Assembly (NCBI GenBank): GCA_029531795.1
Contig: JAPEIS010000001.1
Location: forward strand, 806,001 to 870,000
DNA from: Sclerotinia nivalis
Taxonomy: Eukaryota; Ascomycota; Leotiomycetes; Helotiales; Sclerotiniaceae
Direction of reading: 5' to 3'
Length of the DNA: 64,000 nucleotides
This document shows positions 2,513-64,000 of this stretch, piece after piece. A program made the translations under genes and the position numbers. Every line of letters starts with the position of its first letter. Position 1 is the stretch's first letter. The notes below the pieces were generated by a model, which saw only the letters and a list, made by a program, of their open reading frames with translations, had not been told where the DNA came from and did not search any database.

Positions 2513-2698
2513 AGTGGCGAAACTTTACTGACGCTATCGCACAGAGACTATATGGGCTTTATTCTCGGGTTCCGAGATAAATCTTGGAAAGTGGAACAAA
2601 TGGCTTCGAAGCTAACATCGGTGGCGCGAGTTGCGATTAAATTGATTGGCAAGTTTCTTGTAGAAACCTAGAATCAGGTACTGGCGATCAAATCATCT

Positions 2699-5600
2699 AT
2701 GTTGATTAGCGTTCAAAACGTACATATGCTTCATCTACCAAATTCAAGTCTAGTTAGAATATCAGCTGGTCGTGCAACCATGTTAGATCTCATAAAGCAT
2801 GAGACGGCGGAAGTCCTTGAACTTTCAACGTCAGATGTGTGCGAGAACCTCAGCTTCGTCGAACTTGGTGGAAATTCCTTGTCCGCAATCGCACTTGTGA
2901 ATGGCTGCAGACGAGATTGGGGGTTGATATTGGACTTCAAGTCGGTGCTTACAACCCCTTCTCTGACCGACCTATCAAAATCGGCAAGATGGGAAAAACG
3001 TCTCTGTAGACCCAAGAAAGATAGTTCTGAGAACGCCCCCAAAAAGAGTCTATTCATGGTCGAACAAAGGTCGAAATACTCCGGAAGTTCGCTCGAGGCG
3101 TCAAAAAATGTTGTAGTAGAGGCAGTCGACACTCATCATTCGGCCACCCGAGTCTTAGGACTGGCCCCAGTTCCTCACATGCACCTGACATTCATTAATG
3201 GCGGACAACGGCAACCTGGCACCAATATTATCCACTACTACGAGACATACGACGTCAGACATCTTTCTACTGTCAAAAAAGCGTGGATGGAAGTCATTGA
3301 GTCTGAGCCAATTTTTCGCGTCAACTTTACTCTTTACGAAGAGAATGGGACTCTTACGGAGCAGAAAGTGGCACCATTCTGTTGGACTGAAGTTACTGTG
3401 AGCACCACTGTCATGTTTGAGAACGAAGTCAAGAAATTACATAAAACTTCGAAGATCAATTCAAGCTTCAGGGTGGTTATACTTCAAACAAAACCTCAGC
3501 AGGAGTCAAAATTCACTATTATTTGGCGTGTCCACCATGCTCTCATGGACGGACACTCATACAAAGTGGTTCTGAAAAAGGTCCGCAGTGCCATAAACGG
3601 CTTACCACTTCGCGACGGCTTGTCATTTGTTTCATTAGCAAAAAGGCTCGATGAATATCGGAAAACACATCAAGCGAAGGGGAAAAGTTTCTGGAAACAA
3701 CAATATGACCAACACGGTGCGGGCTATGGGCTGCTTTCTTTACCAAAGAACACGAATGAGAGTAACGGGGTAACCACACTCCCAACCGATATAACTATTC
3801 AGGTATGCGGAGATGACCTTTCACGCTTTTCAAAGCGGGTAGGTGTCACACTAGCTTCAACTTATTATGCTGCATGGGGTATGGTTCTATCAAAATTCGT
3901 TGGATCTGATACTGTCACTTGCGGCGCAATTTTTTCGTGTCGAAATCTCCCATTGGAAGGGATCACTGAAACACTGGGTTCGATGGTGAATACCTTGCCA
4001 TTGACCCTTGTTTTCGATAGGAGCCAGTCCTCGGTGGATTACGTACGCTATGTTTTTCAGTGTCTAATTAAGCTCTCAAGTTTCCAGTGGACGGTACCTG
4101 AGGACGGTTACACACGAAATTTCTCATCTGTATTGGGTATACAGCTAGAGGATTCAGAAACCCCCTTAGTTTTGAATGGTCATGAAGTTCGGACACTACA
4201 GAGACCATTTTCTCGTGTAGTAACTGATATACCACTCAATATTTGCGCCGATGGGAACGGTAGGGTTACATTCTCATTTTGCGAGGCCCACTACAGTAAA
4301 AGGAATGTGGAGACAATGGTCGAGATGTTTGAACTAGCACTTGTAACACTTTTACAGCCACAACAGACAATGGGAATGTGCTTACAGGGACTCCTCTCAC
4401 TAGAGCACCGAAAGTATCTTCTTGCCATGGGAAACTGTTTCTCGGCTTTAACGACAGGCTCGGTTGTTAGCGATGATTTAGTCACAATTTTCGAGCGGTG
4501 CGCACATTCTTTTCCAAATATTGTTGCGCTAAAAAAAGGCCCCAAGACGGTTACTTACGCCGAACTGAATGGTCTTGCATCTTCCGTTGCTGAATACCTT
4601 GTCTCAATCGTTGCACCAGGGGATGTTGTCTGTGTTCATGCTGATCGTTCAATAAATTGGATTGTAGCTGCAAGTCTCCCTCACAATTTCGAATGAGTTA
4701 TAATCTGACAATTTTTAGATATATGGAGTGCTAAAGGCGCGAGCAATATATTGTCCACTCGATAGCGGTCTATCTTCCGATCTCAGAACATCTTATTTAA
4801 AGGATGCAGGTAGTCACATCTTTTTAACCGGCATTAAGAATGAGCAGAAGCTGTTCCTAGGGCACGCTGCGAAGATCATCGCCATCGAAGACATTCTGCT
4901 CAATGTCCTGGATGCTCCGTCAAGGAACCGACCGAAACTTATTTATAAGCATGGTCAAGAGCTGAGAGAAAATGCATATTTGTGTTTCACCTCTGGATCA
5001 AGTGGAAAGCCTAAGGGTGTCATGTGTACCCACAAGGGGCTCATTGCTTTCCAAAGTGACCTTGAGGTCCGTTTGTTTGCGCAACCAGGTAAAAGAATCG
5101 GTAAGAACGATAGGATTTCCCATCTTATACAGTCCAGTCCTCAAAAGCGTGCTTGAATATTACTCTGCACTTGATAACTACTCTACCCCTTCAGAAACAT
5201 TCAAATGCAGGCAAATGCTGATTCCCCAAACACCAACAGCTCAAATTATGTCACCAGCTTTTGATGGGAGCATCCACGAAATATTCTCCACTTTAAGTTA
5301 CGGAGCCACTCTGGTCCTTGAGAGTGGTACGAATCCTCTTGATCATTTGAAATCAGTTACTACAGCTATTCTAACCCCTTCTCTGGCGGCAATGCTCCAT
5401 CCTTCCGACTACCCTAGTTTAGAAACCGTAAGTAGGCTTTTTCTCTCCGCAAAATTGCCCGCATCATACTAACTAAACACCGAGGTTTATCTTGTAGGCG
5501 AAGCTGTTTCACAAAAGTTAAATGATTGCTGGGCAGCTACGAAACAATTATACAACATGTGTAAGCAGATTTCTCTTTAACGCTTCGTCATAATAAACTG

Positions 5601-7869
5601 ACTTTAGGACTGCACAGATGGACCCACTGAAGCAACATGTGGCGCTACAATCAAGCGTTTACAAACGAACGAACCGGTGACCATTGGAATTCCTAATCCA
5701 ACAACAAGGATCTACATTTTGGACGACCTTCAAAATTTATTACCCGCGGGCGTGATAGGTGAAATATACCTTGCCGGAGTCCAAGTTTCTCGTGGATACA
5801 TTGGACGTTCCCGAGAGACAGCGAAGAGTTTCATGCCAGATACAATATGTAATGATAAAGCTGGGCTTATGTATCGAACTGGGGATCGTGCATTTTGGAA
5901 TAGTAAAGGGGAAATAGTCTGCCTAGGGAGAACAGATCGTCAGATCAAGCTTCGAGGATTCCGACTTGATCTCAATGATCTCGAAACCAGGATTTTGAGA
6001 GCAGTTCCACAGGCCACGGCTGTCGCAATCACTAGTAAAGAAGATATTTTGGTGGGAATGCTTCAACCAAAGTCATTGAAACCCTCGGATATCCGTTCCC
6101 TCGCTCTGAAAGTACTACCTCCCCACGCGGTTCCTCAACATATTGTAGTGGTTGATGATATTCCAATTACGCCTGCAGGTAAAACAGATTACGCAGCGAT
6201 CGCGGGATTTGACTTTGTTGCGAGTTTGCCAAAGGTATTACTGCGAGACTTGAGTGACCTCGAAAAAAAGATATCGTGTGCATGGCGATATGTTTTGAAT
6301 ATTTCAGAAGAAACGATGATCTACAGAGACTCAAACTTCTTTGACCTCGGAGGGACCTCTATCCAGATGCTCTTGTTGTCTCATCGACTTGTTGCTGAGT
6401 TCAAGCGAAAAGTGCCCCTAACTTCAATATTGCAGGCAAAAACTCTATCTGAGCTCGCGAAAGTAATGGATGCAGTCCAAATGACACCCGAACCCTATGG
6501 AGAACTTCGAAAATCCTTGGGAGAGCATGGAATCTCACCGATTGAACACGAATGGTGGAGCAGATATCAGCTGTCTCAAGATACCTCATGTTTCAACGTG
6601 TCGTTTGCCTGCTCGCTAGCCGACAACATTGATCGATGGAAACTGACAATAGCCTGGAATGATGTTCTGTTTCGCCATGATATCCTCAGATGCAGGTATC
6701 TTGAAGACAAGAATGGGGGCGTTATGAGAGATTATGTATCCCATCCACCACGTTTACAGCGCATCCGAACAATTGATTTGGATCGCCAGATTAACCTACC
6801 CTTCAGCTTGCACCAGCAACATCCCATCCGCGTTTTGATGAGTAAGACCTCTCTACTTGTAGTTGCCAGTCATATAATTTGTGACCTGACCACGATGAGA
6901 CTCTTACTCCGCGAGGTGGCGTCGCTCTACCACGGCCAAGGGTTAGGACCAGTCACAACATCGTACTGCCATACAGACTTGTGGCATACGCCACCCCCGA
7001 AGCCCACTTTAGAATTCTGGTCAAGATACCTTCGCAATCCGCCAACTCTCGTCTCCGACATAGGCAATTTCAAAAATCGAAAATCAATGTACGGCGGTGC
7101 AAGCCAAGTTTTTCGGGTCCCCGCCGCGATATTTGGCACTATGACTAAGTTTACAGCATTTTCAAGACTAACCTTCCATCAACTAATGCTCGCCGCTGTA
7201 TCACTAGCCTTATCATATAATTTAGAGGAACACGACGTCTTAGTAGGCGCTCCGTACTTGAACCGGGTATCTGAAGACCAAATGGAAACCGTGGGCCTTT
7301 TCTTACAACCACTTCCAATTCGGATTCAATACGCAGACGGAAACAAAAACAGTAAGTCTACAGGCTTTGAACAACCAGCAATGAATTGCTCGCCACCCAT
7401 CGATCCGTTCCTCCTCGCTGTCCAAGCGTCAAGCCATTCAGCGCTATCCCATCCAATCCAATGGCATCACCTCCTGTCACATCTTAACATAGCACCCGAC
7501 TACCCGAACCATCCACTATTTGATGTCATGGTCACATTTCATGAGCTAGAGTCTAAACCAATGTTCCCAATTCCCGGTGTAAGACCATTGTATACCTGGA
7601 CGCGAGGCGCGAAGTTCAAATTGATGGTGGAAGCACAGGCTATAAGCAAAGACACTTTGGTTATAAGATTAGAGTATGATGAGGAGTGTTTTGACGATGT
7701 AACTTTACGATTCTTTCAAAGTATGCTTTTGGTGGCATTAGATGGGTTCAGTAGAGAGCTAGCCTTTGCAACAGTGAAGGAAAAATTGAAGGAGTGCGCC
7801 AGAACCGGCGGAAAATCCAATCCTCAAGCGGAAGACATTGTTTCTTTTGCGGGGTTGCTTGAGAACTGA
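2699..7869 (+). CDS. Nonribosomal peptide synthetase, T-C-A-T-C, GliP/SirP-like (N-terminal adenylation domain absent)
   Basis: Five exons join in frame: 2699-4669, 4719-5100, 5240-5427, 5485-5560 and 5618-7869, giving about 1,622 residues. Domains in order: thiolation T1 (LGGNS, Ser near residue 60), condensation C1 (HHALMDG near 279), adenylation A2 (TSGSSGKPKG near 746, then the FDGSIHEIF and YGPTEATCG cores), T2 (LGGTS, Ser near 1118) and C2, where the usual HHxxxDG is replaced by SHIICDL near 1289. From memory, this odd C2 motif also occurs in dioxopiperazine synthetases such as GliP. GliP-type enzymes are A-T-C-A-T-C-T; here the first A domain and the last T domain are missing. Only about 30 residues that might be an A1 tail precede T1. 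The first intron has a GC donor (GCAAGT). The enzyme probably forms or once formed a cyclic dipeptide; without A1 it would need an amino acid loaded in trans. It may be a decayed allele. Confidence 0.85.
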
Positions 7870-17372: not shown

Positions 17373-18976
17373 TCCCCCCATTGGTCAGAATGACTAACAT
17401 GAAGTCCGAAACGTAAGTGGTCGCTGTCTGCCTTGGAGCCTCGTTAACTCCTGCAACAACCTGTGAGCTCCCCTCGCCGTTGTGACGTCTACGTCTCCCG
17501 TGGAGTTCGACCATCCCGTAGCTTCATGCTACGTTGCAGTACAAAAGTACTCTCCAAACTGATCAATCTTCTTTCTTCTGCCTGGCAGGGTAAGACATAT
17601 GGTCATTTCCCCCCTTTTCCCTGCCAACAGGCAAGTGAACCAAACTTCAATCTTCCAAATTCAACCCCAATCCTGTTCCATGAACGCAGAACCCCGGGTA
17701 AGTTAGTTGTTTGGTCAGCACATCTGCTGTTTGATCAGTTCCTTTGATCCAGATCATCCTTAATCTTTTCTTTTCGACCATATCATATCGAATGTAATGC
17801 CATCGGATGGAAATATGCTTCGCTTTGCTGTGAAATTTGTTCTCTTTTGTCCAGTCCACTGCACTCTTATTGTCACAAAACAGAGTGGGTACAAAAGGAT
17901 CATCCTCAGACCGTTCCTTCAAATCTGTAACAAGCGTTTCCCATCCAAGCAAGATCTTTTGCTCCTTCATTCGCAGCTATGATCTCGGCTTCCATTGTGC
18001 TTTGAGATGTGGATTTCTGCTAGGTCGACGACCAAACTATGGCTCCACCATATCTAATGATAGCTACACCTTGCACTGACTTCTTGTCCTGTTCAGAGCC
18101 CCAAGTTGCATCTGTATAGGCATTATATTCTCTTGGAAGCTGTTTCATTCGATTGGAATATGTAATCCCAACTGTCGGTGTTTGTGCAAGGTATTGAAGA
18201 AGATGCTTCGCCAATATGTAATGTTGCTCTCCTGGAGCTCGCATAACTCGTGCTAGTTGTCCTACCGCAAAGGAGATATCGGGACGACTGCAATTTGCTA
18301 AGTATAATACTGATCCGACAATCCGCGTATACACGTATTTGTCGTCCTCACTTAGCAATTCCGAATCGTTCGTATCTTGTACAACAGTTCCTGGCGGAAG
18401 GGGCAGATCCTTTACCGTGCTGCCATCGATCCCAAAACGTTCGAGAACCTTTCTGACATATGCGGATTGATGGATTTTGAGGGTGCGATTCGCTCTATCA
18501 CGTTCGATTTGTAGACCTAGGAAAATTTCGATGGCTCCCAAGTCTTTGCATTTCCATTTCTGGCCTATCTTCCTTTTGATTTCATTGACACTGAATCGTT
18601 TCCCAACTACTAGCAGGTCGTCAACATATACTAGGACGGATACTCCTCCGCCAACAAGTAAGTTGGGGTCCGCTATTGAAACAGTCAAGCCTATTCTTGT
18701 CAAATACTCTTGTACTGCCTTCCACCAAATACGAGGTGCTTGTTTCAATCCATAAAGGGACTCCTTAAGTTTGAGATAGACCCTTGCTTCTCCTGGGTTC
18801 TTCCTGAGCATTTCTTTTATTTCAGGATAGACCTCTTCGAAGAATTGTGGGATTTCCATCAATATCTCAACATCTGTCAACTTTTCATTTAAGAATGCTG
18901 TATCAACATCCATATTGTCGACCTCTAGATCTTCTGCTGCCGCTTTGGCCAGCAAGGTCCTCAATGTTGAGTACTG
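17373..18976 (-). mobile_element. Ty1/copia reverse transcriptase-RNase H remnant, 5' truncated
   Basis: Minus-strand frames at 18964-18020 and 17970-17647 encode the 3' end of a copia pol. The reverse transcriptase carries MDVDTAFLN, SLYGLKQAPR and the catalytic LVYVDDLLV box. RNase H follows with STMEAE and a DNKSAVDW block, and the tail contains QTADVLTKQL. A TAG stop replaces a lysine codon near 18025, and a frameshift falls near 17965-17975. Gag, protease, integrase and the 5' LTR are gone, so the copy is inactive. It separates the biosynthetic genes from the regulator at 19110. The upstream break near 18976 falls at a TGTCACG sequence, which resembles the LTR ends elsewhere in the window. 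Confidence 0.85.
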
Positions 18977-19109: not shown

Positions 19110-20527
19110 TTATAGGCCACCGACCCTCCTGACCTTCTCTACTAAACGCTTTAGACGGTCCTGCATGTCTCCGTGGTACCCAGTCTGCTCCTCGCTCATA
19201 CCGTCCCGACCATTGTATCCACTCGACTTGGCATTCGAAAGAACCACAACCTTACGGATGATTTCTGCAATGGGCCTCAGTTCCTCAAGTACTATCTGGC
19301 AGCCAAACCGTTTCTGATTTCCGGGGCTGGTGTTAAAAGTTCCAAATCCAAGGTCGTTCAAATTGCCACCGAGTGGATCGGCCAATTTATCAACGAGACC
19401 ATCTGTAAGGAAGTTGGTACATCCCGCCTCGACAAGTTCCAATATCTGATATACTATTGTGCTAAAGAGTGACAGGCATTTGACGTTACGGAGTCCGAGT
19501 TGTTCCCCGACCAACGGGCCAAGTTTGTCAATAACACGTTTGACGATTCCGAGAACAAGATCAAGAACTTTTAGCTCGGCGACAAGATACTTTTCTAAAC
19601 TAATAATTATCTGAGAGCATGCCATTACACATCGACTGCTACTTCCGCTATCTGCAAGATGACGCGGTTGGGTGTCGACGGGAAACGAGAGTTGTGATTG
19701 GAATTCTCTACTGCAGGAAGGTGGTCGATGTTCCCCGACATCGAAATCAAGGCCAGCAAGGCCAGCGACATCATAATCACCGCCGGCATGAGAAAATGTG
19801 GCACTATAAGTACTAGTGCGCTGACGTTGACCAATGGACGAGATTTGCTGCTGTCGTGGTGGCTCTTGCTCCGGTCTTGGTTCCAACTCATGTGACGACA
19901 AAGATTCAAATATGTGGTTTCTGGCGCCATCATTAAAGGTGTAGTCATCATTTAGTGCATGAGACTGTCCATCATTAAAGTCGGCAGACCAATTTGTATC
20001 GTCGAATGATTCCAACACCACAGAGCCTTGGGTCAGTGCCGATGGACTCGGCATATCAGGGAAAGAAAAGTCAAGTTCGATAGTTTCATTTGGAGCATCC
20101 GAAACACTGGGGGATGTAGGCTCTGTTGTATTCGCAGATTCCATCGTAGCTCTATCGCCTGGCGTAACCTGCTTTCTCTTCGCCCGCACACTATGAGCAT
20201 GTTAGTATATCCTCTCGAGACCTTATTCTGCAGACAGCTGCCAAAACATAATCCACCAGTTCGACTTTCAAGCAATTACAAAAGGCAAGGGAAGGATATA
20301 ACAAACCCGGGGACTCGACCAACTCTGGATTCAGCGTAGACGCAATCGACGCCAAGGGTATTGCAGCGGGTGCAGCCCGTTTTCTCACCGGTACACTTGA
20401 CCTGATTTTTCGTCAAAATATTGGGGCAGAGTGTGGGGACATTCTCACTAACCTTGGTAGTATTACACCGATTGCACGCTGCTCTTAGCTTCATGGTTTT
20501 CGCTTTCGTTTTCGCAACTTGAGGCAT
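19110..20527 (-). CDS. Zn2Cys6 transcription factor, AflR/GliZ-like cluster regulator
   Basis: Three minus-strand exons, 20527-20453, 20401-20307 and 20190-19110, give 416 residues. The DNA-binding domain spans two introns and has the canonical CX2CX6CX6CX2CX6C spacing with Cys at 18, 21, 28, 35, 38 and 45. It is followed by the basic linker block VGRVPG-VRAKRK typical of AflR-like proteins. A serine- and proline-rich middle leads to a C-terminal region with MACSQIIISLEKYL, the type of helix found in AflR/GliZ-family regulators. It very likely controls the NRPS cluster to its left through the recurring YCGG-N3-CCGR palindromes. I saw no such site in its own upstream region. A dead copia element now lies between it and the genes it would regulate. 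Confidence 0.85.
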
Positions 20528-39418: not shown

Positions 39419-41185
39419 ATGGCTTCTACCGATAATGCCGAGAAGAAGATCGATGAGAATACCAGGGCTTCAGATTCATCCAATATTGAGAAAGGTGATG
39501 TCATTCCACGAAATGAAAACGCTGCGACGAGACACGAAGACCAAACAATCGCCATTCTCGAACTCGTAAAAGCCCAAGATGTTCATCACCCTATGCATTG
39601 GTCCGCCTTCAAACGATGGGGTATCGTGGTTATTTACTGTATGTTGCAGACTTTTGTTGCCCTTACCAGTACAACTTATGTATCTGCCGAGTTCTTGATA
39701 CAAGAGAAGTTTGGAGGAACTACTCAAGTTGTTACTTTGGGCCAGAGTATGTTCATTTTGGGAACAGCGGTCGGTCCTATATTCTTGGGTCCATTATCGT
39801 AGGTTGAACACAACATATGGCGCACACTGCGATCATCGTGGTTGTGAACAGAACCATAACTGAACATTTACAGTGATCTTGGTGGCCGTAAATGGATTTA
39901 TGTTATTAGCATTGCATTCTATGCAATTTTGAACTTTGTAAGTGATCTCGAAGATATCATCGATGGAATCATTTTTAACAACATTTAGGGAACTGCATAT
40001 GCTCTTAATCTTCCTATGCTCATCATCTTCATGTTCCTTGCGGGCACAGCTGGTTCTACTGCCCTTTCGAATGTAGCTGGTACAATTGCGGATCTGTTTG
40101 GAGATATTGATGGTGCTGGACAAGCAATGGCACTTTTCGTCATGTGTAAGAACCGAGAAATATTCCGATCTCCGCCTCATATATCAGAAGTACTAATGAC
40201 TTGCATGTAGCTGCAAATATTGGTCCATCTCTCGGATCCCCCGTGGGGGAGTGGATAGCGGATAATGCGGATATGGGTCTTAAATGGATCTTTCTAATCA
40301 ATGTAATTATTGGTTTTGCATTCGCTATCATCATGTGTTTCATTCCAGAAACATTACCAAGATTGGTTATCGCCAAAGCAGCCGCAAAGAATCAAACCGT
40401 TGATGAGCAGGAAACTGCCATCTTGACAGGCAAACTCAATGTTCTCCAGGAAATGAAGTTTATCACGACCATGACATTCAGAATTATGTTCACGGAGCCA
40501 GTTGTTTTATTCCTTGGCTTGTACAATGGTTTCGCCTACGGTATCCTCTTCTTGTACCTAGATGGAGTATTTGATGTTTTCGTTGTCAACAACGGTCTCT
40601 CTTACATCGGTGCCGATCTCACGTACCTCAACTTCGTCGTCGGAGTAGTCGTCATGTTCCTCTTCGTTCCGGTTCAAACTTGGTTCTATGCGAGAGATCG
40701 TAAGAAGCATGGTATCAACCGTCCAGAAGCTAGATTCCTCACTTCTTTGGTTACCGTCTGGCTTTTCCCAATTACACTCCTTTGGTTCGCATTTACCTCT
40801 GATGGAAGCGTATCTTATTGGTCACCAGTTGTCGCTGGTGGTGTTCTTGGTTTTGCAGATCCGTTATTGTGGCTCAGTATGCTTAACTACATTACTGGTA
40901 TGTTTTTGGTCCATCATTACCCCTTACATCTCGCTAATTTAAATTCCTCCTTTAGACTCCTACCCCAACGTCGCCGGTGCCGCAATTGCAGCTTTTCTCA
41001 TCCCCTCTTTCGCTCTCGCAGCAGGTCTCGCTCATCTCGGTGTCCTCATGTTCGATAACATGTCTACGAAATGGGCTATGGGTACTATTGGATTCATTAG
41101 TATTGGTCTCTGTGCATTAATTTACTTCATCTATTTCTTTGGTGCAAAAGTAAGATCAAGATCGAAGCTTGCCAGAAGATTTTAG
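39419..41185 (+). CDS. MFS transporter, DHA1 drug:H+ antiporter type
   Basis: Exons 39419-39798, 39874-39937, 39989-40145, 40211-40897 and 40956-41185 close in phase and give 505 residues, the normal length. A charged cytosolic N-terminus of about 65 residues precedes about 12 hydrophobic helices. The motif A region between helices 2 and 3 is DLGGRKWIY, and PETLPRL follows helix 6. This pattern fits plasma-membrane DHA1 family exporters of the polyamine and fungicide type. Nothing ties it to the NRPS cluster 20 kb away; it sits in the conserved block, so a housekeeping or general efflux role is more likely. Confidence 0.85.
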
Positions 41186-52605: not shown

Positions 52606-53759
52606 TTGAAGATCAAATCCTTTAAATCTTCAAATGAAGTATTTGATATATAATTTTGTAATTACTAATAATATATTTGATATTTATAAATCTCTATATA
52701 GATCATTAATAAATATAACGGAAACGAATATAAAATGATTAAATTGAAGTTGCGTATTTTATTCTAAATTAGATTGAATCGGAATGATTATATAGACTCT
52801 TTTGTAGTCACGTTACCCGCCTCCTTTTTGGTACGGTAACTATAACTTTAAAGATTGCTTTCTGGCTTTCTATTATTTCTCTTTCTTCTTCCTTTTATCT
52901 TTTGTATTCCAGATTTTCTTTTTGAGATCTTGAAGAGATCAAGTATAAAAATAAATCCTATTGTTTATTCCCTTATAGTAAAAGCAATCGTACAATTTCC
53001 CTTCCCAATTGATTGATCTCTTTCCACTCTCTTAAATCTTTACCAAAAAATTTGTTCTGATGTTCCCAATAAACAATCAACTCCATCCTTCTTATCGGGT
53101 TTCAAAACGATCTGAATTGATCCTTTAGATGGGATTACCTCAGATGATTCGCCTTTTTCTATATCGTCTACACTTTCTCTTAAGGAGCTAACTCTGATCG
53201 GGTATGAACCGGAGATAGAACCAGAAATATACTAATTGACTTCAGAGGAAATATATTGATCTCTACTAACAGATTTATGAAAACTGGTAGGTGCTTGATT
53301 GCTAGCAATTGGATCGGTGCTAAAATCAGAGGCTAGCCTTTTACGTATGGCGTTAAGCTTCTTTTCTGGGAATTCCTCGTGTTTTTTTCATATAGATCTG
53401 TGCCTCCTCGATGAGATCTCTTTCGATCCTATGAACACAACCTCATATTTCAAGAAGCCACTCTTCTTTTTTATCCGGGTGGCGAACTGCTTAGCCTTGC
53501 CGAAAAAGCTTCGAGTTGCACCGTGCCCTCTCAAGCGGGAGCAAAAAGTGGCCGATGTCTGCCAAAATCGGCCGTTTCTCTTTCGGATGAAAGATATCCC
53601 TCTGTCGCGACAAACTTTTCCAGAACGTTAAACCTCTACAGTTGTCAGCCCTAGTATCTAAACGGAACCCGCTCCTTTATCGCCGCCGCTGCAGCCGCCG
53701 TAAATCCTTACGTTATCTCCTTCGACGGGATGATCGTCCTCAAGTTTCCACTTACGCCG

Positions 53760-54087
53760 CGAGAAGCGCGAATAGAAGCACTTACAGAAGCTCGCCAAAG
53801 CCGCCCAAACATCCTTTGCCAAGGGTGCCCTCCAGCAGGGCCAAATTCGATTCTTGACCACAATTAATAACGAAGCCAAAGTTCAACGATCAACCAAATT
53901 GTTAGTACTGGGAAAGGCGAAGGTTATGAGTTATGAGAACCTCGAGGAAGTACGAGTGAAGTGTGCTGAAAAAGAGGCTGCCAAAGAAGCCAAAGAAGCC
54001 AAAGGCAAGGGCAAACGTGGTCGGAAGCGCAAGAGTGCTGTGCTAGAGGCAGAGGCGCCAGAGCCAAATATCAAGGTGCGAGGATGA
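53760..54087 (+). mobile_element. pogo/Fot1-like transposase C-terminal remnant
   Basis: The plus frame ending at 54087 encodes the tail of a fungal pogo-family transposase: KAAQTSFAKGALQQGQIRFL, NNEAKVQRSTKLLVLGKAKV, MSYENLEEVRVKCAEK and a basic KGKGKRGRKRKSAVLE end. These blocks are, as I recall, characteristic of the last 100 residues of Fot1-like DDE transposases. The catalytic domain is missing, and the frame upstream of about 53830 is broken. Frames at 53299-53631 are not recognised. Confidence 0.7.
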
Positions 54088-54748: not shown

Positions 54749-55342
54749 TCATCCAATACATACTTCAGAGGGGAACCCAAATAGCTCAAAGTAAGCTGTC
54801 ATCTTTCCTTTGGGTGTTTTACCATTTGTGAAAAACCATGAATACTTTTGCATAAAGGTATCAATGTCCGAAAATGCTGATGCGGTTTGATGCGTCTGTA
54901 GTTCTACCTCACCAACCCAGTGGCCAAAATCCGTCGAATCTAACATGATGGAAAATTGATTGTCTGCGAGATAGGTTTCTCTCTTTGTGCGATACCGACA
55001 TATTCTCGTTAAGCCAAAATTGGTATCTGGACCAACTTCATATCCTACATGCGCGCAGGTCCTAACCAGTCTCTTGATCTCATCAACCTTATTGGTCTCG
55101 TAAAAGGAAGATCGAAGAAAGTCGCCGTCTTGACGACGTTTGGCCTCCCAGGTTTTATCGCGTTTTCGTATCCATACGCCGCTCTTTGATAGCAGATTGG
55201 CAGAGTCGAAATATTCGTCTTCAAAGCACTCGTTACGTTGATAAGTCAGATTGCGAAATGGTGGCTGCCCTTGGTTCATGCGGAACCGTGCAAGCAGGGC
55301 TGGGTTAAAGGCAAACTTCCGCTCAATCTCGTAAAGTGGCAT
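54749..55342 (-). CDS. CYTH-domain triphosphatase (thiamine-triphosphatase-like)
   Basis: A single-exon gene of 197 residues starts MPLYEIERKF. The ExExK signature at residues 5-9 (EIERK) is diagnostic of the CYTH tunnel-fold superfamily, which binds triphosphates through metal ions. Further typical elements are FEDEYFDSANLLSKSGVWIRKR, TWEAKRR, the basic RYRTKRETY and the acidic HWVGEVELQ strand. Length and order match animal thiamine triphosphatase. An upstream in-frame Met at 55369 exists but would add a non-conserved extension. The gene lies 285 bp downstream of viperin on the same strand. Given its neighbours, a nucleotide or nucleotide-analogue triphosphate could be the substrate; this is inference. 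Confidence 0.85.
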   Translation of the reverse strand: MPLYEIERKFAFNPALLARFRMNQGQPPFRNLTYQRNECFEDEYFDSANLLSKSGVWIRKRDKTWEAKRRQDGDFLRSSFYETNKVDEIKRLVRTCAHVGYEVGPDTNFGLTRICRYRTKRETYLADNQFSIMLDSTDFGHWVGEVELQTHQTASAFSDIDTFMQKYSWFFTNGKTPKGKMTAYFELFGFPSEVCIG

Positions 55343-55626
55343 AATAGGTTTGGTAAACAGATAAATCACGACTCGCTTTCAGAAGGTGAAATACAGATAC
55401 AACGGTTGGTATGTAAGTCGGCAGCCATGAACAATACAATCGCTTGAGCATAACGGTGTCATAATTGATGAAGTAGCCGTACTTTAGCCGAAGATAAAGC
55501 CCCAATAATTACACTGGACCCCACCCCAACACGCCAAATACATCCCGTGGTATTAACCTTACGATTTCCAATATTATGAAAAAGCCCAATTCCTTCAAAC
55601 CCGTTAAACATTATTCGCGTTCACAT

Positions 55627-56583
55627 TCACCAATCCAGCAGCTTAGCACTATCCTCATGTATTGCCTTGGTCCAATCATAAATGCCACCACGGTGTATAA
55701 AGTTCTTCTCGTCCCAAAAGACACTCTGAAGAGCCTTCTCAACTCCAACCTCGAGTATTGATGCCGAGGGATCGTTTCCCTTATCAAGAAACCTCATGTA
55801 TTCGTCCAAAATAAGATAGGAGTCTTTCATGACGTTGTTCGGTTCTGCCACAAAGCCATCGATGGTAGAATGCTTATCACAAAACTGTTTAAATTGATTG
55901 TCTGAGATGACAAACCGGGTTGCATCCCGAAGAGTAACATCCGAATCGTTTTCACCCTTGACCACAAGCACTTGGAAGCATTTCCAACGAAAGGGTGCTA
56001 TGGCCTGAATATCCGTGCGCATATCCTCTTCAAAGTTGTACTTGTTTACCACAGTATTGACCTTAAACTTGATTCCGTGCTCCTGGCAGATAATCCGAAG
56101 TTGGGTAAATTTCTCCAGATGAGATCCTCTGCCACGTCCAATCTTCACATTTGTTGCCTCGTCAAAGGAGTCGCACGAAACCGCGATAATGTCAATAAAC
56201 CGTCCAAACGTGGCAAGGAATTGCGGCTTCACCAAACTTCCATTTGTCACAATCGAAACCGATTCAAGCCCCAATTCAGTCTTGCAGAACCTTGCTAGCT
56301 CTCCTACAAATTTCGGATACATCATCGGCTCCCCACCAGCAAAGTTCAGTTTCTTCATCCCAGCCTGTTTGAGAAGTGACAGACCCTTCTTGGCGTCTTC
56401 CAATGGAAGGATATATGATGTTTTCGCAGTATGAAAGCAGAAACCACACTCATAGTTACATTTTCTGGTCAAATGATAATTGACCGAGATCGGAACAGGT
56501 GAGACGCATTTTTGGTTTCCCTTTCGGTAAAAAATGACGATAACCAAAATCATGACAAGGACGATGATGAGAATTGATGTCAT
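55627..56583 (-). CDS. RSAD2-like: Viperin (RSAD2-like radical SAM nucleotide dehydratase)
   Basis: An uninterrupted frame of 318 residues. A hydrophobic anchor at about 4-18 is followed by the radical SAM cluster motif CNYECGFC (Cys 42, 46 and 49), then FHTAKTS, the GGEP motif at 83-86, the SIVTNGSL strand and the VSCDSFDE block. The C-terminal part, with MKDSYLILDEYMRFL, RGGIYDW and a final LDW, closely parallels vertebrate viperin, including the extreme C-terminus needed for iron-sulfur cluster loading. Viperins convert CTP (or another NTP) to the 3'-deoxy-3',4'-didehydro form, a chain terminator of viral RNA polymerases. The start at 56583 gives a short anchor; the same frame stays open to a Met at 56865, adding 94 non-conserved residues. 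It is divergent from the nucleotide kinase at 57110 and followed by the CYTH gene. Confidence 0.93.
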   Translation of the reverse strand: MTSILIIVLVMILVIVIFYRKGNQKCVSPVPISVNYHLTRKCNYECGFCFHTAKTSYILPLEDAKKGLSLLKQAGMKKLNFAGGEPMMYPKFVGELARFCKTELGLESVSIVTNGSLVKPQFLATFGRFIDIIAVSCDSFDEATNVKIGRGRGSHLEKFTQLRIICQEHGIKFKVNTVVNKYNFEEDMRTDIQAIAPFRWKCFQVLVVKGENDSDVTLRDATRFVISDNQFKQFCDKHSTIDGFVAEPNNVMKDSYLILDEYMRFLDKGNDPSASILEVGVEKALQSVFWDEKNFIHRGGIYDWTKAIHEDSAKLLDW

Positions 56584-57109
56584 GTTCTTCGATGTGTTTG
56601 TGTTATGTGTGGTATTTTTGAGCTGGGAAATGTTCGAGGGAGTTTCAGAAGGGTTCGATGAGTTGCGATATAGATATAATGGAGGTAAGTCAGTTATGGC
56701 TGCTTGCAGATATGCCGTGGCAAACAAAACGACCTTCTCTTTAAGGATGTATCTTCCTTGAATGTTTGTGAAACCTTGGCTCACATTTATGGGAAGGCTT
56801 GCATATAAGGTCATATGATTATAGAGAGAATCGTATAAGGGGCCGTATAAAATAGAAATAATCAAGAATAAGTTTTATCAAATAGACTAAAGTACTTTAC
56901 ACTTTGAACCTTATCATTTGATACCAACAAGAACATCTATTTGCTTCTTTTTCCTTTCAATATTTGATCTTGAAGCATCCCCCCAATTCAGAAGGTCGAA
57001 CGCCAAATTCCATTACCTATTGGAATTGTATTCTATTGTATTGGCAACTTATATGTTAGGACCAACCGAGTTAATTTAATCTTTTGAATCAGATACTTGA
57101 CATAGTCAA
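56584..57109. promoter_or_regulatory. Shared divergent promoter of viperin and the nucleotide kinase
   Basis: The starts of viperin (minus) and kinase (plus) are 526 bp apart with no other gene between them. This layout supports co-regulation. The segment includes AT-rich stretches and several TATA-like words near 56810-56890; I could not identify a specific operator. Confidence 0.55.
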
Positions 57110-57871
57110 ATGGATGAACAGTGTAATGAGATGGAGATTTCACCTCGAAATCATAGTCTTCTGATATATGTTATTGGTAAGCCTAAGTAAGCTGCGAAAG
57201 ATTTGTGTTGGTGGAATTAACAGATTCTAGGGTGTCCAGGATCAGGAAAAGGGACGTTGTGTAATCTCTTGGTGCAAGATTATGGCTGTTACCATGTCTC
57301 AGTCGGTGATCTGCTACGAAATTTAAGAGATCAAAACGATCAGAGTCTTGATATTAAGGATTACATTCGAGAGGGTAAACTAGTGCCCACGGCAACAATA
57401 GTCAACATCGTGAAGCGTGCTATTATAGGCAAGCTAGGAACCTATCATGCCATTATTATAGATGGGTTCCCACGAAGGCTCGATCAGGGAATCGCCAGCG
57501 AAGATCAGGCAAGAGATCAATAACCCGAAATGTTGCATGCTTCTGATTTTTTTGTAGCTAGGCAAACCAGATCTTGTTCTTTTTTTCGACTGCGAGAAGG
57601 CTGTTGCAAAAGAGCGGTATTTGACACGAAAATTGGAAGGGAGACTTGACGATAACGAGGAAATCTTTCATCAACGATATAATGAGTTTGGGCGCTTAAA
57701 TCCGGCCATCGTGGATTATTACCGGGACCTTGGAATACTGCTTGACGTATATTTAGATATCTTCGGTTTTAGAAAATGCTAATGGTATTCTAGATTAAAA
57801 CGAACGATAAAACAACTGTTAGTTATCAAAATCTTATCGAAATGTTAAAGTCGAACGGAAAATGGATGTAA
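57110..57871 (+). CDS. UMP-CMP/adenylate-kinase-family nucleoside monophosphate kinase
   Basis: Exons 57110-57176, 57231-57508, 57558-57746 and 57794-57871 close in phase and give 203 residues, the usual size of UMP-CMP kinases. The P-loop is GCPGSGKGT at 23-31. Next come VSVGDLLR, the NMP-binding GKLVPTATIV, IIDGFPRR and the short lid RKLEGRLDDNEE near 140-150, a short-lid form typical of UMP-CMP kinases. The second intron begins with GC (GCAAGA), as no GT donor fits. It should phosphorylate a pyrimidine monophosphate with ATP in the cytosol. CMPK2 is the neighbour of viperin in vertebrates, and kinases accompany some prokaryotic viperins, so it plausibly feeds CTP or UTP to viperin. Confidence 0.88.
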
Positions 57872-61698: not shown

Positions 61699-63640
61699 TT
61701 ACTCGACTGTGATTTCCGCTGTTGGATCCTTTCTAATATCCAATTCCATCAAACCCTCTTTCTTCTCAATGACAAGACCCTTCTCATTAGCCAAATGCAA
61801 TAGACAGATAAAACAATAACTGGTTGAGATATCATTCATGACTTGTTTTGGGTATACAGTCTGGAGATTTTGCATGACTGTTGTGAATTGGAGGGTCTCG
61901 TTTTCATCAGTAGGCAATTTAAGAGGTGGTGTGGGGAAACGTGATGCGGAAAGTGAGGTATCCTGTTTTATTTTATGTTAGTGATAAAGTTTGGGGTTGA
62001 GATACAGGGTATGAGGAACTTACAGGTTGTTCAGGCTCACTAAATCCAATACCCTTCCATAATTCCTCTTTCAGTCTCCTCACATCAACCTTCTTAGCAA
62101 CCCTAGCATATTGCACATATTCAGGTCTTAATCTTCGACTTTGTGTAACCAATTGCGTACCGAAAGCGCCCTCTTCGCCGTCAACGCCTTGAGGTCCAGC
62201 ATTTAATATAGCAGTGATACCATCGATACCACCTGCACCTTGTCCTTGAGCTCCAGGTGATAACTGTTCGCGTGCATCGGCGAATTCCATATCATCATCG
62301 TCCATACCACCCGGCATTGCCAAACCATCATCTTGGAAGAAGTTGGCATCGTAATCTCCATGAGGTGGAGCTTCATCCTCCAATGTGTGAGCGGGTTCTT
62401 CTTTTCGTGCCCAATAATCTTCACCAATTTCACCTTCAGGAATGTCATCCTCCTTCTTTTGACCGAAAGTTCCAGATTTTGCTCCGAATCCAGATTTTCG
62501 ACTACCCATTCTAGCTTTGGGCTTGAGGAAAAGGCGTAACAACTGTTTGGAGTTAAAATGCTTATCATCGGGAAGAAGGTTCCTCGTTTTAGATTTCCAG
62601 TCTTTCTTTGGGAGAGATATTGTAGCATTAGTTGCTGCATGTGTATAGATAGTTTCAGCTAGGCTAGCACTTAATGGAGACATAAAGTCAATCTCGAAAG
62701 GCTCTTTCTCCTTGCGGATCTTCGTAACTGCTGGTTTGTTGACGTCTTTAATCTTTCGTATCCTCCAATGCTCAGGACCGGCCCAATTCTTTTGCAAGGC
62801 CTCGTCAAAATAACTTAGAATATCGTCATGACCACCTTCTGTCTTTGATCCACGATCAAGAGAAATGACGTACTCGCCGGTCTCAGGGTCGAATGAACCA
62901 GCACGTCCTTCTCCATCCTCACCATCGCCACCGTCATTGTCGTATGCTACATCGTGAACTCGCATTCGTGGTTCGATCGCAGCGTCACGAGCCCAAGCTT
63001 CACCACCTTCACCAAATCCAGCATCATCTGGAATATCGAAGTTTCCGAGGAGGCCATCATCGTCGTCATCAAATCCAATTGGGTTGTCATCATCGAGGAA
63101 AATGCCCGACCTGTCACCTACCCCATTGTCTTCTGTCTTGTCTTTCTCTTGTCGCCAATCTTCCGGTGCTTTTAGAAATGGAATGTCCATGGAACCAGAA
63201 GGATCTCCGAGGTCGAAATTCTTCAATGATGGACAAATATCCTGTTCTTCAAGGAAATCCAAGTTTGGGAAAAACTTGATACCCAAAGCCTCCACATCTA
63301 TCTCTACATCATCTTGATCCTCGTCCTCATTCTCATCATCTTTTAGCGTAACATTTGCCGATTCTATAACTTCTTCCTGATCCTCTTCAATGGCATCATC
63401 CTTTCGTCTCCTGCCTCGTCCTTCTGCTGATGCGTCGCCTGCATCATCACTACTGTCAAAAACTATACGTCCTTTAGAATCGATCGAGAGATGATTTAAG
63501 AGGAGGCCCTTGGCTCCGCCCTCATCGAAATCTGCAGATGCTTTTTTGAATAAAGGATCAACAGAAAACTCAAGTTCAAACTTTTTTAATTGTAATGCTG
63601 AAAATGAAGTTGCGAGAGTCGCTTCTGATGAACGTTGAGT
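61699..63640 (-). CDS. BRN1: Condensin subunit CAP-H/Brn1 (Barren kleisin), 5' part not found
   Basis: Minus-strand exons 63640-62024 and 61962-61699 encode 626 residues of the kleisin subunit of condensin. The exon opens with RSSEATLATSF, then FSVDPLFKKASADFDEGGAKGLLLNHL, a long acidic middle, and the C-terminal winged-helix region with RRLKEELWKGIGF and STSYCFICLLHLANEKGL. Kleisins bridge the SMC2-SMC4 heads and bind the HEAT subunits during mitotic chromosome condensation. Fungal homologues are about 850-900 residues, so roughly 250 N-terminal residues are missing. An acceptor (TAATCATAAATTCAG, with a branch-like GCTAATC) precedes the exon, yet no matching coding exon appears in the 360 bases up to the window edge. 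Confidence 0.88.
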
Positions 63641-64000
63641 CTGAATTTATGATTAGCTACGGTTTTTGTAGTGCATGTAAGTAGCAATGATGTGCTGTGT
63701 TCGAAATCGACAAGATTTTGCCAAATAGAGTTGTTACAATTCGAATGTTGTGGTTTAGTGACTTGACGAATACAAAGAGTAAGAACTATATCACCAAACC
63801 ACAACATCTTTGATCACTGATAAACCGATAATAAGATATTAAAGTTCAATTGCAAGAAACAAAAATATTTGTATCCCCTAGCTGCGAGTACAAGTTGTGA
63901 GGAAAAGTGTGGCACGAGGCCCCACCCATTAAACGATCGGACTAGCGCCCCTCCAATTGGTCCAGGAACAATATCGCAGATTGATGTGGTTGAACTGTGC
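63641..64000 (-). other. Upstream flank of CAP-H, no coding exon recognised
   Basis: If the CAP-H intron begins beyond this point, the whole flank is intronic, which would be long for this genome. A 73-codon minus-strand frame at 63586-63807 has no kleisin-like sequence and overlaps the CAP-H exon in another frame. The last 100 bases are GC-richer. Confidence 0.4.

Follow-up and report, generated by a model that had tools for sequence, protein, structure and literature searches.

The 64,000-base window of the Sclerotinia nivalis genome analysed here carries three open genes within 3.1 kb, encoding a CYTH-type triphosphate tunnel metalloenzyme, a viperin and a nucleoside monophosphate kinase. 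The genes lie on contig C1, which is 8,128,115 bases long, in a 31-contig genome of 50.3 Mb; S. nivalis belongs to the family Sclerotiniaceae of the order Helotiales, class Leotiomycetes. Their coordinates agree with the arrangement proposed by an earlier sequence-only reading of the window, with viperin divergent from the kinase and CYTH following viperin on the same strand. The same three families lie together in other fungi, and on balance we favour the interpretation that they constitute a conserved fungal antiviral-nucleotide cassette, whose linkage is observed and whose functions are predicted. Within this cassette, the viperin-kinase partnership is of a known kind, here with a different kinase family, and the CYTH partnership is one for which we found no counterpart.

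The sequence-only reading had proposed conserved adjacency in related species as a test of its module idea. Adjacency in other species was taken from protein-database records, as an identical recorded contig size together with locus tags, and the counts are lower bounds, being drawn from the best 120 of 3555 viperin matches and the best 120 of 1208 kinase matches. The three families were found on one contig at at least five further loci in four species, giving six loci in five species with the window included. The trio has consecutive tags in Botryotinia calthae (00040/00050/00060) and Scytalidium lignicola (g5286/g5285/g5284), and shares one contig in Mollisia scopiformis. Rhynchosporium agropyri has two separate viperin-kinase-CYTH trios, on contigs of 1029126 and 325940 bases, where the kinase and CYTH are two tags apart at both loci (CYTH RAG0_02825 and kinase RAG0_02827; kinase RAG0_13633 and CYTH RAG0_13635) and viperin is placed by the shared contig only. 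The second viperin model of this species (P0045) looks mis-modelled in its middle.

At least ten more contigs bear two of the three families. Viperin and kinase, with no CYTH among the listed matches, share six of them, in Rutstroemia, Claussenomyces (M1818_006203/006202), Clarireedia (011786/011785), Melanomma, Periconia and Aspergillus alliaceus. Kinase and CYTH share two, one from Tricladium and one of 8,886 bases, and viperin and CYTH share another two. Counted from the CYTH side, at least nine of the 23 homologues share a contig with a listed partner, as do 8 of the 11 whose contigs exceed 8 kb, a size cut chosen after the fact; the other three of these 11 (Botrytis elliptica, B. sinoallii and Geoglossum simile) have no linked partner among the matches listed. 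The 120 listed kinases provide a control. Thirteen of the 35 with a GKGTL P-loop (29) or a P-loop that could not be classified (6) share a contig with a listed viperin or CYTH, compared with 0 of the 85 others. These 85 are an unmatched set, with no recorded contig size for 3 and with many members drawn from contigs that are short or non-fungal.

When trio loci are compared in pairs, identity in the kinase follows identity in CYTH (Spearman 0.90; 15 locus pairs, which are not independent), and viperin identities follow less closely (0.46 with kinase, 0.28 with CYTH), in a set that includes four partial kinase models and the apparently faulty second Rhynchosporium viperin. The named CYTH homologues belong to Leotiomycetes, a class confirmed for S. 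nivalis and S. lignicola and presumed by us for the other named CYTH-bearing fungi, with one further homologue, without a listed linked partner, in Geoglossomycetes. Viperin-kinase pairs extend beyond Leotiomycetes to Melanomma (Dothideomycetes), and also to Periconia and Aspergillus, which we take to be Dothideomycetes and Eurotiomycetes, respectively. Among the matches listed, CYTH occurs in a narrower set of fungi than the viperin-kinase pairs, and it may thus have joined later a pair that is older and more widespread.

The viperin of the window is an intact frame of 318 amino acids with a hydrophobic N-terminal segment, and the CxxxCxxC, GGEP and terminal LDW features on which it had been recognised as full-length are all present. 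Across 14 aligned fungal sequences, including that of the window, the cysteines of C42xxxC46xxC49, the GGEP motif at 83-86 (within NFAGGEP) and the terminal W318 are each invariant (14/14); some of these proteins end in LEW or VEW rather than LDW. The C-terminal tryptophan of viperins has a role in cluster insertion. The protein matches the NCBIfam viperin model TIGR04278 (E 5e-122, 407 bits, under the exception-level cut-off of 450), the prokaryotic viperin model NF038283 (249.5 bits, over its cut-off of 180) and the PADLOC pVip model (E 3e-69), and it lies in a genome with seven radical S-adenosylmethionine (SAM) places.

The nearest solved structure to the window viperin is 6b4c (424 bits), whose letters match the Trichoderma virens viperin P0063; the excerpt of PMC8124187 tabulates this entry under both mouse and T. 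virens. Viperin is described as an ancient eukaryotic family, with animal and fungal members cited as one clade apart from the bacterial ones (excerpt of PMC10732462), and the substrates of a fungal viperin are given as CTP and UTP (excerpt of PMC9642334). TtRSAD2 from Thielavia terrestris and the T. virens viperin belong to the same enzyme family as the window protein. In the excerpts available, however, these two were investigated as lone enzymes, whereas the window viperin sits in a gene trio.

The kinase gene has four exons at 57110-57871 (+), separated by GT-AG, GC-AG and GT-AG introns, and encodes 203 amino acids. Its spliced translation is 100% identical to the deposited protein OCU04_000218 (P0144), which confirms the splicing, including the GC-AG intron. 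The Pfam ADK family (PF00406) matches it with E 6e-31 and 108 bits (cut-off 26.8), a better match than Thymidylate_kin (E 9e-5, 22.7 bits, under the cut-off of 27). The sequence-only reading had labelled the enzyme UMP-CMP-type, a point that the sequence cannot decide. The nearest solved relatives tie, with 115.1 bits for AK1 and 114.7 bits for yeast uridylate kinase, and both NCBIfam cut-offs are missed (TIGR01359 for UMP-CMP kinase, 129 bits vs 207.6; TIGR01360 for adenylate kinase, 135.9 vs 284.1). The nucleoside monophosphate (NMP) site, DGFPRRLDQ, is closer to the URA6 type, which reads DGFPRKLDQ in the URA6 of this genome, than to AK1 (DGYPREKEQ).

In a tree of 35 kinases, 23 fungal kinases, including that of the window, split (100/100) from 12 housekeeping URA6, AK1 and UMP-CMP rows. 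For the window kinase and eight other members of this lineage, the contig also carries a listed viperin or CYTH; the remaining 14 belong to the lineage by sequence alone. The P-loop carries leucine (GKGTL) in 22/22 ungapped lineage rows versus glutamine (GKGTQ) in 12/12 housekeeping rows. Six residues of the P-loop, NMP site and LID (K29, R52, R104, R135, R144 and R155) are unsubstituted in the 23 lineage rows, with K29 gapped in one, and in 12/12 housekeeping rows. A housekeeping URA6 misplaced beside viperin was ruled out: a distinct URA6 (L008) is present in the genome, and the window kinase falls outside the URA6/UMP-CMP clade, split from L008 and from 11 further housekeeping kinases.

The S. 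nivalis genome has four ADK loci besides that of the window. An ADK-family gene on contig C10 (847909-848514, L014) carries GPPGIGKGTQC and FPRSMDR, and is neither of the GKGTL type nor a standard URA6. Two GKGTL-type kinases, Botrytis cinerea P0160 and B. fragariae P0152, are predicted at 117 and 151 amino acids, compared with 203 in the window, through either gene-model errors or decay.

The third protein had been named a CYTH triphosphatase. Its CYTH family membership is upheld, and by sequence and fold searches it is more narrowly thiamine-triphosphatase-like, being nearest to mammalian thiamine triphosphatase (THTPA) at ~24% identity. Pfam and NCBIfam profiles, PF01928 included, gave no match to the window protein, and PF01928 is precomputed for 4 of its 23 homologues; fold and motifs nevertheless place it in the CYTH/triphosphate tunnel metalloenzyme superfamily, whose tunnel fold it shares. 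The alignment comprised 21 sequences, namely the window and 20 of the 23 homologues, with P0016, P0017 and P0023 left out as partial or rearranged models. All 21 have the ExExK motif (E5, E7, K9) and the acidic ExE (E145, E147), and 11 catalytic positions are invariant. Retention of E147 in 21/21 rules out a class IV adenylyl cyclase (CyaB), in which the second glutamate of ExE is replaced by alanine (excerpt of PMC8233210).

The window protein also contains W57-x-R59-x-R61, with position 57 occupied by tryptophan in 17 and tyrosine in 4 of the 21 sequences, and W/YxRxR is a mark of thiamine triphosphatases (excerpt of PMC8233210). By profile alignment of the thiamine pocket, W53 of THTPA is kept as W57, Y79 is replaced by the still aromatic F80, and M195 is replaced by T182, a position with threonine in 19, serine in 1 and cysteine in 1 of the 21. 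In the mouse enzyme, the thiazole ring is stacked on its second face by Met-195 (excerpt of PMC4641920). The window CYTH is like THTPA in its catalytic residues and in the aromatic counterparts of W53 and Y79, but differs in the Met-195 to threonine change, in overall identity and in the linkage of its gene to viperin.

These features suggest how the cassette may work. The kinase would convert UMP or CMP (or AMP) to the diphosphate, raising the UTP/CTP pool for viperin. From the chemistry of its family, viperin would convert CTP and/or UTP to a chain-terminating 3′-deoxy-3′,4′-didehydro (ddh) analogue, and the resulting ddh-nucleotides would stop viral RNA polymerases. The fold and catalytic set of CYTH point to a two-metal removal of the gamma-phosphate from a triphosphate whose aromatic ring may stack on W57 and F80. 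Its likeliest job would be control, either trimming surplus ddh-nucleoside triphosphate and so sparing the cell's own polymerases, or clearing thiamine triphosphate, a product of AK1. As the physiological substrate of CYTH, ddh-nucleoside triphosphate is a tentative candidate and thiamine triphosphate an only slightly less favoured one, with the rest of the weight falling on an ordinary nucleoside triphosphate, tripolyphosphate or others. That CYTH is a dedicated ddh-nucleoside triphosphatase, serving as an off switch against self-poisoning by viperin, seems to us a somewhat unlikely specialization.

The vertebrate viperin gene, RSAD2, adjoins CMPK2, a kinase of the thymidylate-kinase type. 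The fungal locus resembles this pair in that a nucleoside monophosphate kinase adjoins viperin, but the fungal kinase is of the ADK/URA6 type. Because the kinase families differ, the fungal pairing probably arose separately from RSAD2-CMPK2. We know of no CYTH partner for the vertebrate pair. In bacteria, a CMPK2-like kinase adjoins 15% of viperin genes, and viperin activity is said to rely on synergy with the kinase CMPK2 (excerpt of PMC11249213).

The sequence-only reading had also mentioned kinase neighbours for some prokaryotic viperins, and such neighbours were indeed found. The neighbourhoods of 11 among the top 14 plasmid matches were examined, and four of them have a deoxynucleoside kinase adjoining viperin. 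The profile derived from these four has a match in 8 of 80 genome loci, four at E 2e-50 or better and four at E 4e-12 to 5e-5. The viperin-like proteins of these 80 loci are 36-72% identical to a Nostoc viperin, and both 5 kb flanks are present in 55/80; a first prokaryote scan using fungal viperins as the query yielded no confirmed relative. PADLOC already models viperins with kinases and viperin-kinase fusions. No CYTH is annotated beside viperin in any of the 11 plasmid neighbourhoods. A prokaryotic CYTH profile recovered 3/3 held-out prokaryotic CYTH loci and 20/21 in leave-one-out trials, and missed the fungal CYTH (L016) at E <= 10. A CYTH is present somewhere in the genome in 40 of 79 searched prokaryotes (21/40 plus 19/39). 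The prokaryotic pVip system shares the radical SAM family with the window viperin, but its kinase is of a different family, and the prokaryotic CYTH profile, which could miss a diverged CYTH, has a match at none of the 91 loci.

A dedicated ddh-nucleoside triphosphatase is not known to us as a partner of any viperin. The literature searched, which did not cover Shomar et al. 2024, showed no description of a CYTH partner of viperin or of this kinase lineage, and no printed link between viperin and a CYTH protein or triphosphatase. The abstract of that study, in Nat Ecol Evol, reportedly describes eukaryotic viperins partnered with linked genes, notably nucleotide kinases. One candidate for a viperin-CYTH link, PMC11946419, was rejected, as it concerns CYTH2, an unrelated gene. 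A mycovirus paper, PMC10089162, has viperin only in its reference list.

Several points weigh against the antiviral cassette. The antiviral role and the enzyme substrates in this trio are predictions, though plausible ones. The literature searched showed no account of a mycovirus inducing viperin. Among the matches listed, 6 of 11 viperin-kinase contigs have no CYTH, and the prokaryotic CYTH profile, which misses diverged CYTH proteins, found none within ~4-5 kb at the 91 prokaryotic viperin-like loci. Kinase specificity cannot be read from the sequence, given the tied relatives and missed cut-offs described above. CYTH bears a thiamine-triphosphatase signature, and its substrate may be unrelated to viperin. 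The Botrytis sinoallii homologue P0017 is without the stretch holding R121 and D135, and is either mis-modelled or decayed. On the other side, conserved adjacency supports the module idea, which as a whole is partly supported, and the separate kinase lineage backs its kinase-viperin part.

One alternative retains viperin and the kinase as an antiviral pair and makes CYTH a true fungal thiamine triphosphatase, engaged in metabolite repair and clearing a side product of the induced ADK-type kinase. It draws on the finding that AK1 makes thiamine triphosphate (excerpt of PMC8615392) and on the conserved W/YxRxR motif. However, the window kinase is not an AK1 orthologue in the tree, the thiazole-stacking methionine has become T182, and a specific thiamine triphosphatase is unknown in fungi according to the excerpt of PMC8615392. 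The close tracking of kinase and CYTH identities also fits simple co-inheritance, and we consider this explanation rather unlikely. Another alternative is a secreted or stored antimicrobial nucleoside, with CYTH dephosphorylating the product on export. A fragment of a major facilitator superfamily (MFS) transporter, ~14 kb from CYTH, would suit this scheme, but among nine open frames scanned between 35 and 64 kb the sole Pfam matches were this transporter and a condensin subunit, in an intronless scan that can miss genes, and the conserved-linkage comparison covered the viperin, kinase and CYTH families. This alternative is improbable.

Chance adjacency of three functionally unrelated genes would be easier to accept given the large size of the viperin and ADK-type kinase families (3555 and 1208 matches) and the transposon and non-ribosomal peptide synthetase pieces that the window also carries. 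It is nevertheless very unlikely indeed, because the adjacency recurs in related species: the trio occurs at at least six loci in five species counting the window, twice in R. agropyri, and none of the 85 control kinases is linked among the matches listed. We retain the antiviral-nucleotide cassette as our favoured interpretation of the locus.

Positions in the window of the features that make up the viperin locus
Feature	Position	Strand	Remarks
CYTH / triphosphate tunnel metalloenzyme, thiamine-triphosphatase type, 197 aa, single exon	54749..55342	-	sole genome match
Spacer, 284 bases, from CYTH start to viperin stop	55343..55626		genes head to tail on same strand
Viperin (radical SAM nucleotide dehydratase), 318 aa	55627..56583	-	sole match in genome at E <= 1
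Intergenic region, 526 bases, between divergent viperin and kinase	56584..57109		candidate shared promoter
Kinase exon 1	57110..57176	+	spliced protein identical to P0144
Kinase exon 2	57231..57508	+	P-loop GCPGSGKGTLC, NMP site DGFPRRLDQ
Kinase exon 3	57558..57746	+	LID with GRLDDNEE; GC-AG intron before exon
Kinase exon 4 and stop	57794..57871	+	

A repeat scan of the intergenic region found short elements, namely three direct repeats of two copies each and two inverted pairs, and gave, from the window DNA alone, no evidence for a shared promoter motif. Beside the cassette, at 53638-54087 (+), lies a possible transposon relic, a lysine-rich broken frame that by eye resembles the end of a DDE-type transposase and has four stops in the frame tried. 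The MFS_1 transporter fragment is at 40150-41058 (+) (E 2e-12), and condensin subunit 2 is at 61973-63646 (-), on the opposite side of the cassette.

Elsewhere in the window, two long frames at 2672-4696 and 5608-7869 (+), in different reading frames, contain non-ribosomal peptide synthetase condensation, AMP-binding and carrier domains and are probably pieces of such a synthetase. A Copia-type reverse transcriptase (RVT_2) fragment at 18020-18976 (-) adjoins a long frame at 19110-20201 without a Pfam match. The first 2000 bases have a G+C content of 21%, compared with ~42-47% in the adjoining sequence, and resemble the AT-rich blocks of fungal genomes.

Among antiviral enzymes viperin is one of the most ancient, and we know of no answer to how cells that make chain terminators shield their own polymerases. 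A fungal triphosphatase kept beside viperin is a direct candidate for such self-protection. The presence of a second kinase family beside viperin, of the URA6/AK type in fungi and the CMPK2 type in vertebrates and bacteria, argues that nucleotide supply limits viperin generally, since viperin pairs with nucleotide kinases of different families. Should CYTH prove to hydrolyse thiamine triphosphate specifically, fungi would have their first known enzyme of this kind, as judged from the excerpt of PMC8615392, and thiamine repair would be linked with the metabolism of antiviral nucleotides. Should it instead be a ddh-nucleoside triphosphatase, the three adjacent genes would form a full circuit for making and unmaking antiviral nucleotides, its kinase having been recruited separately from vertebrate CMPK2.

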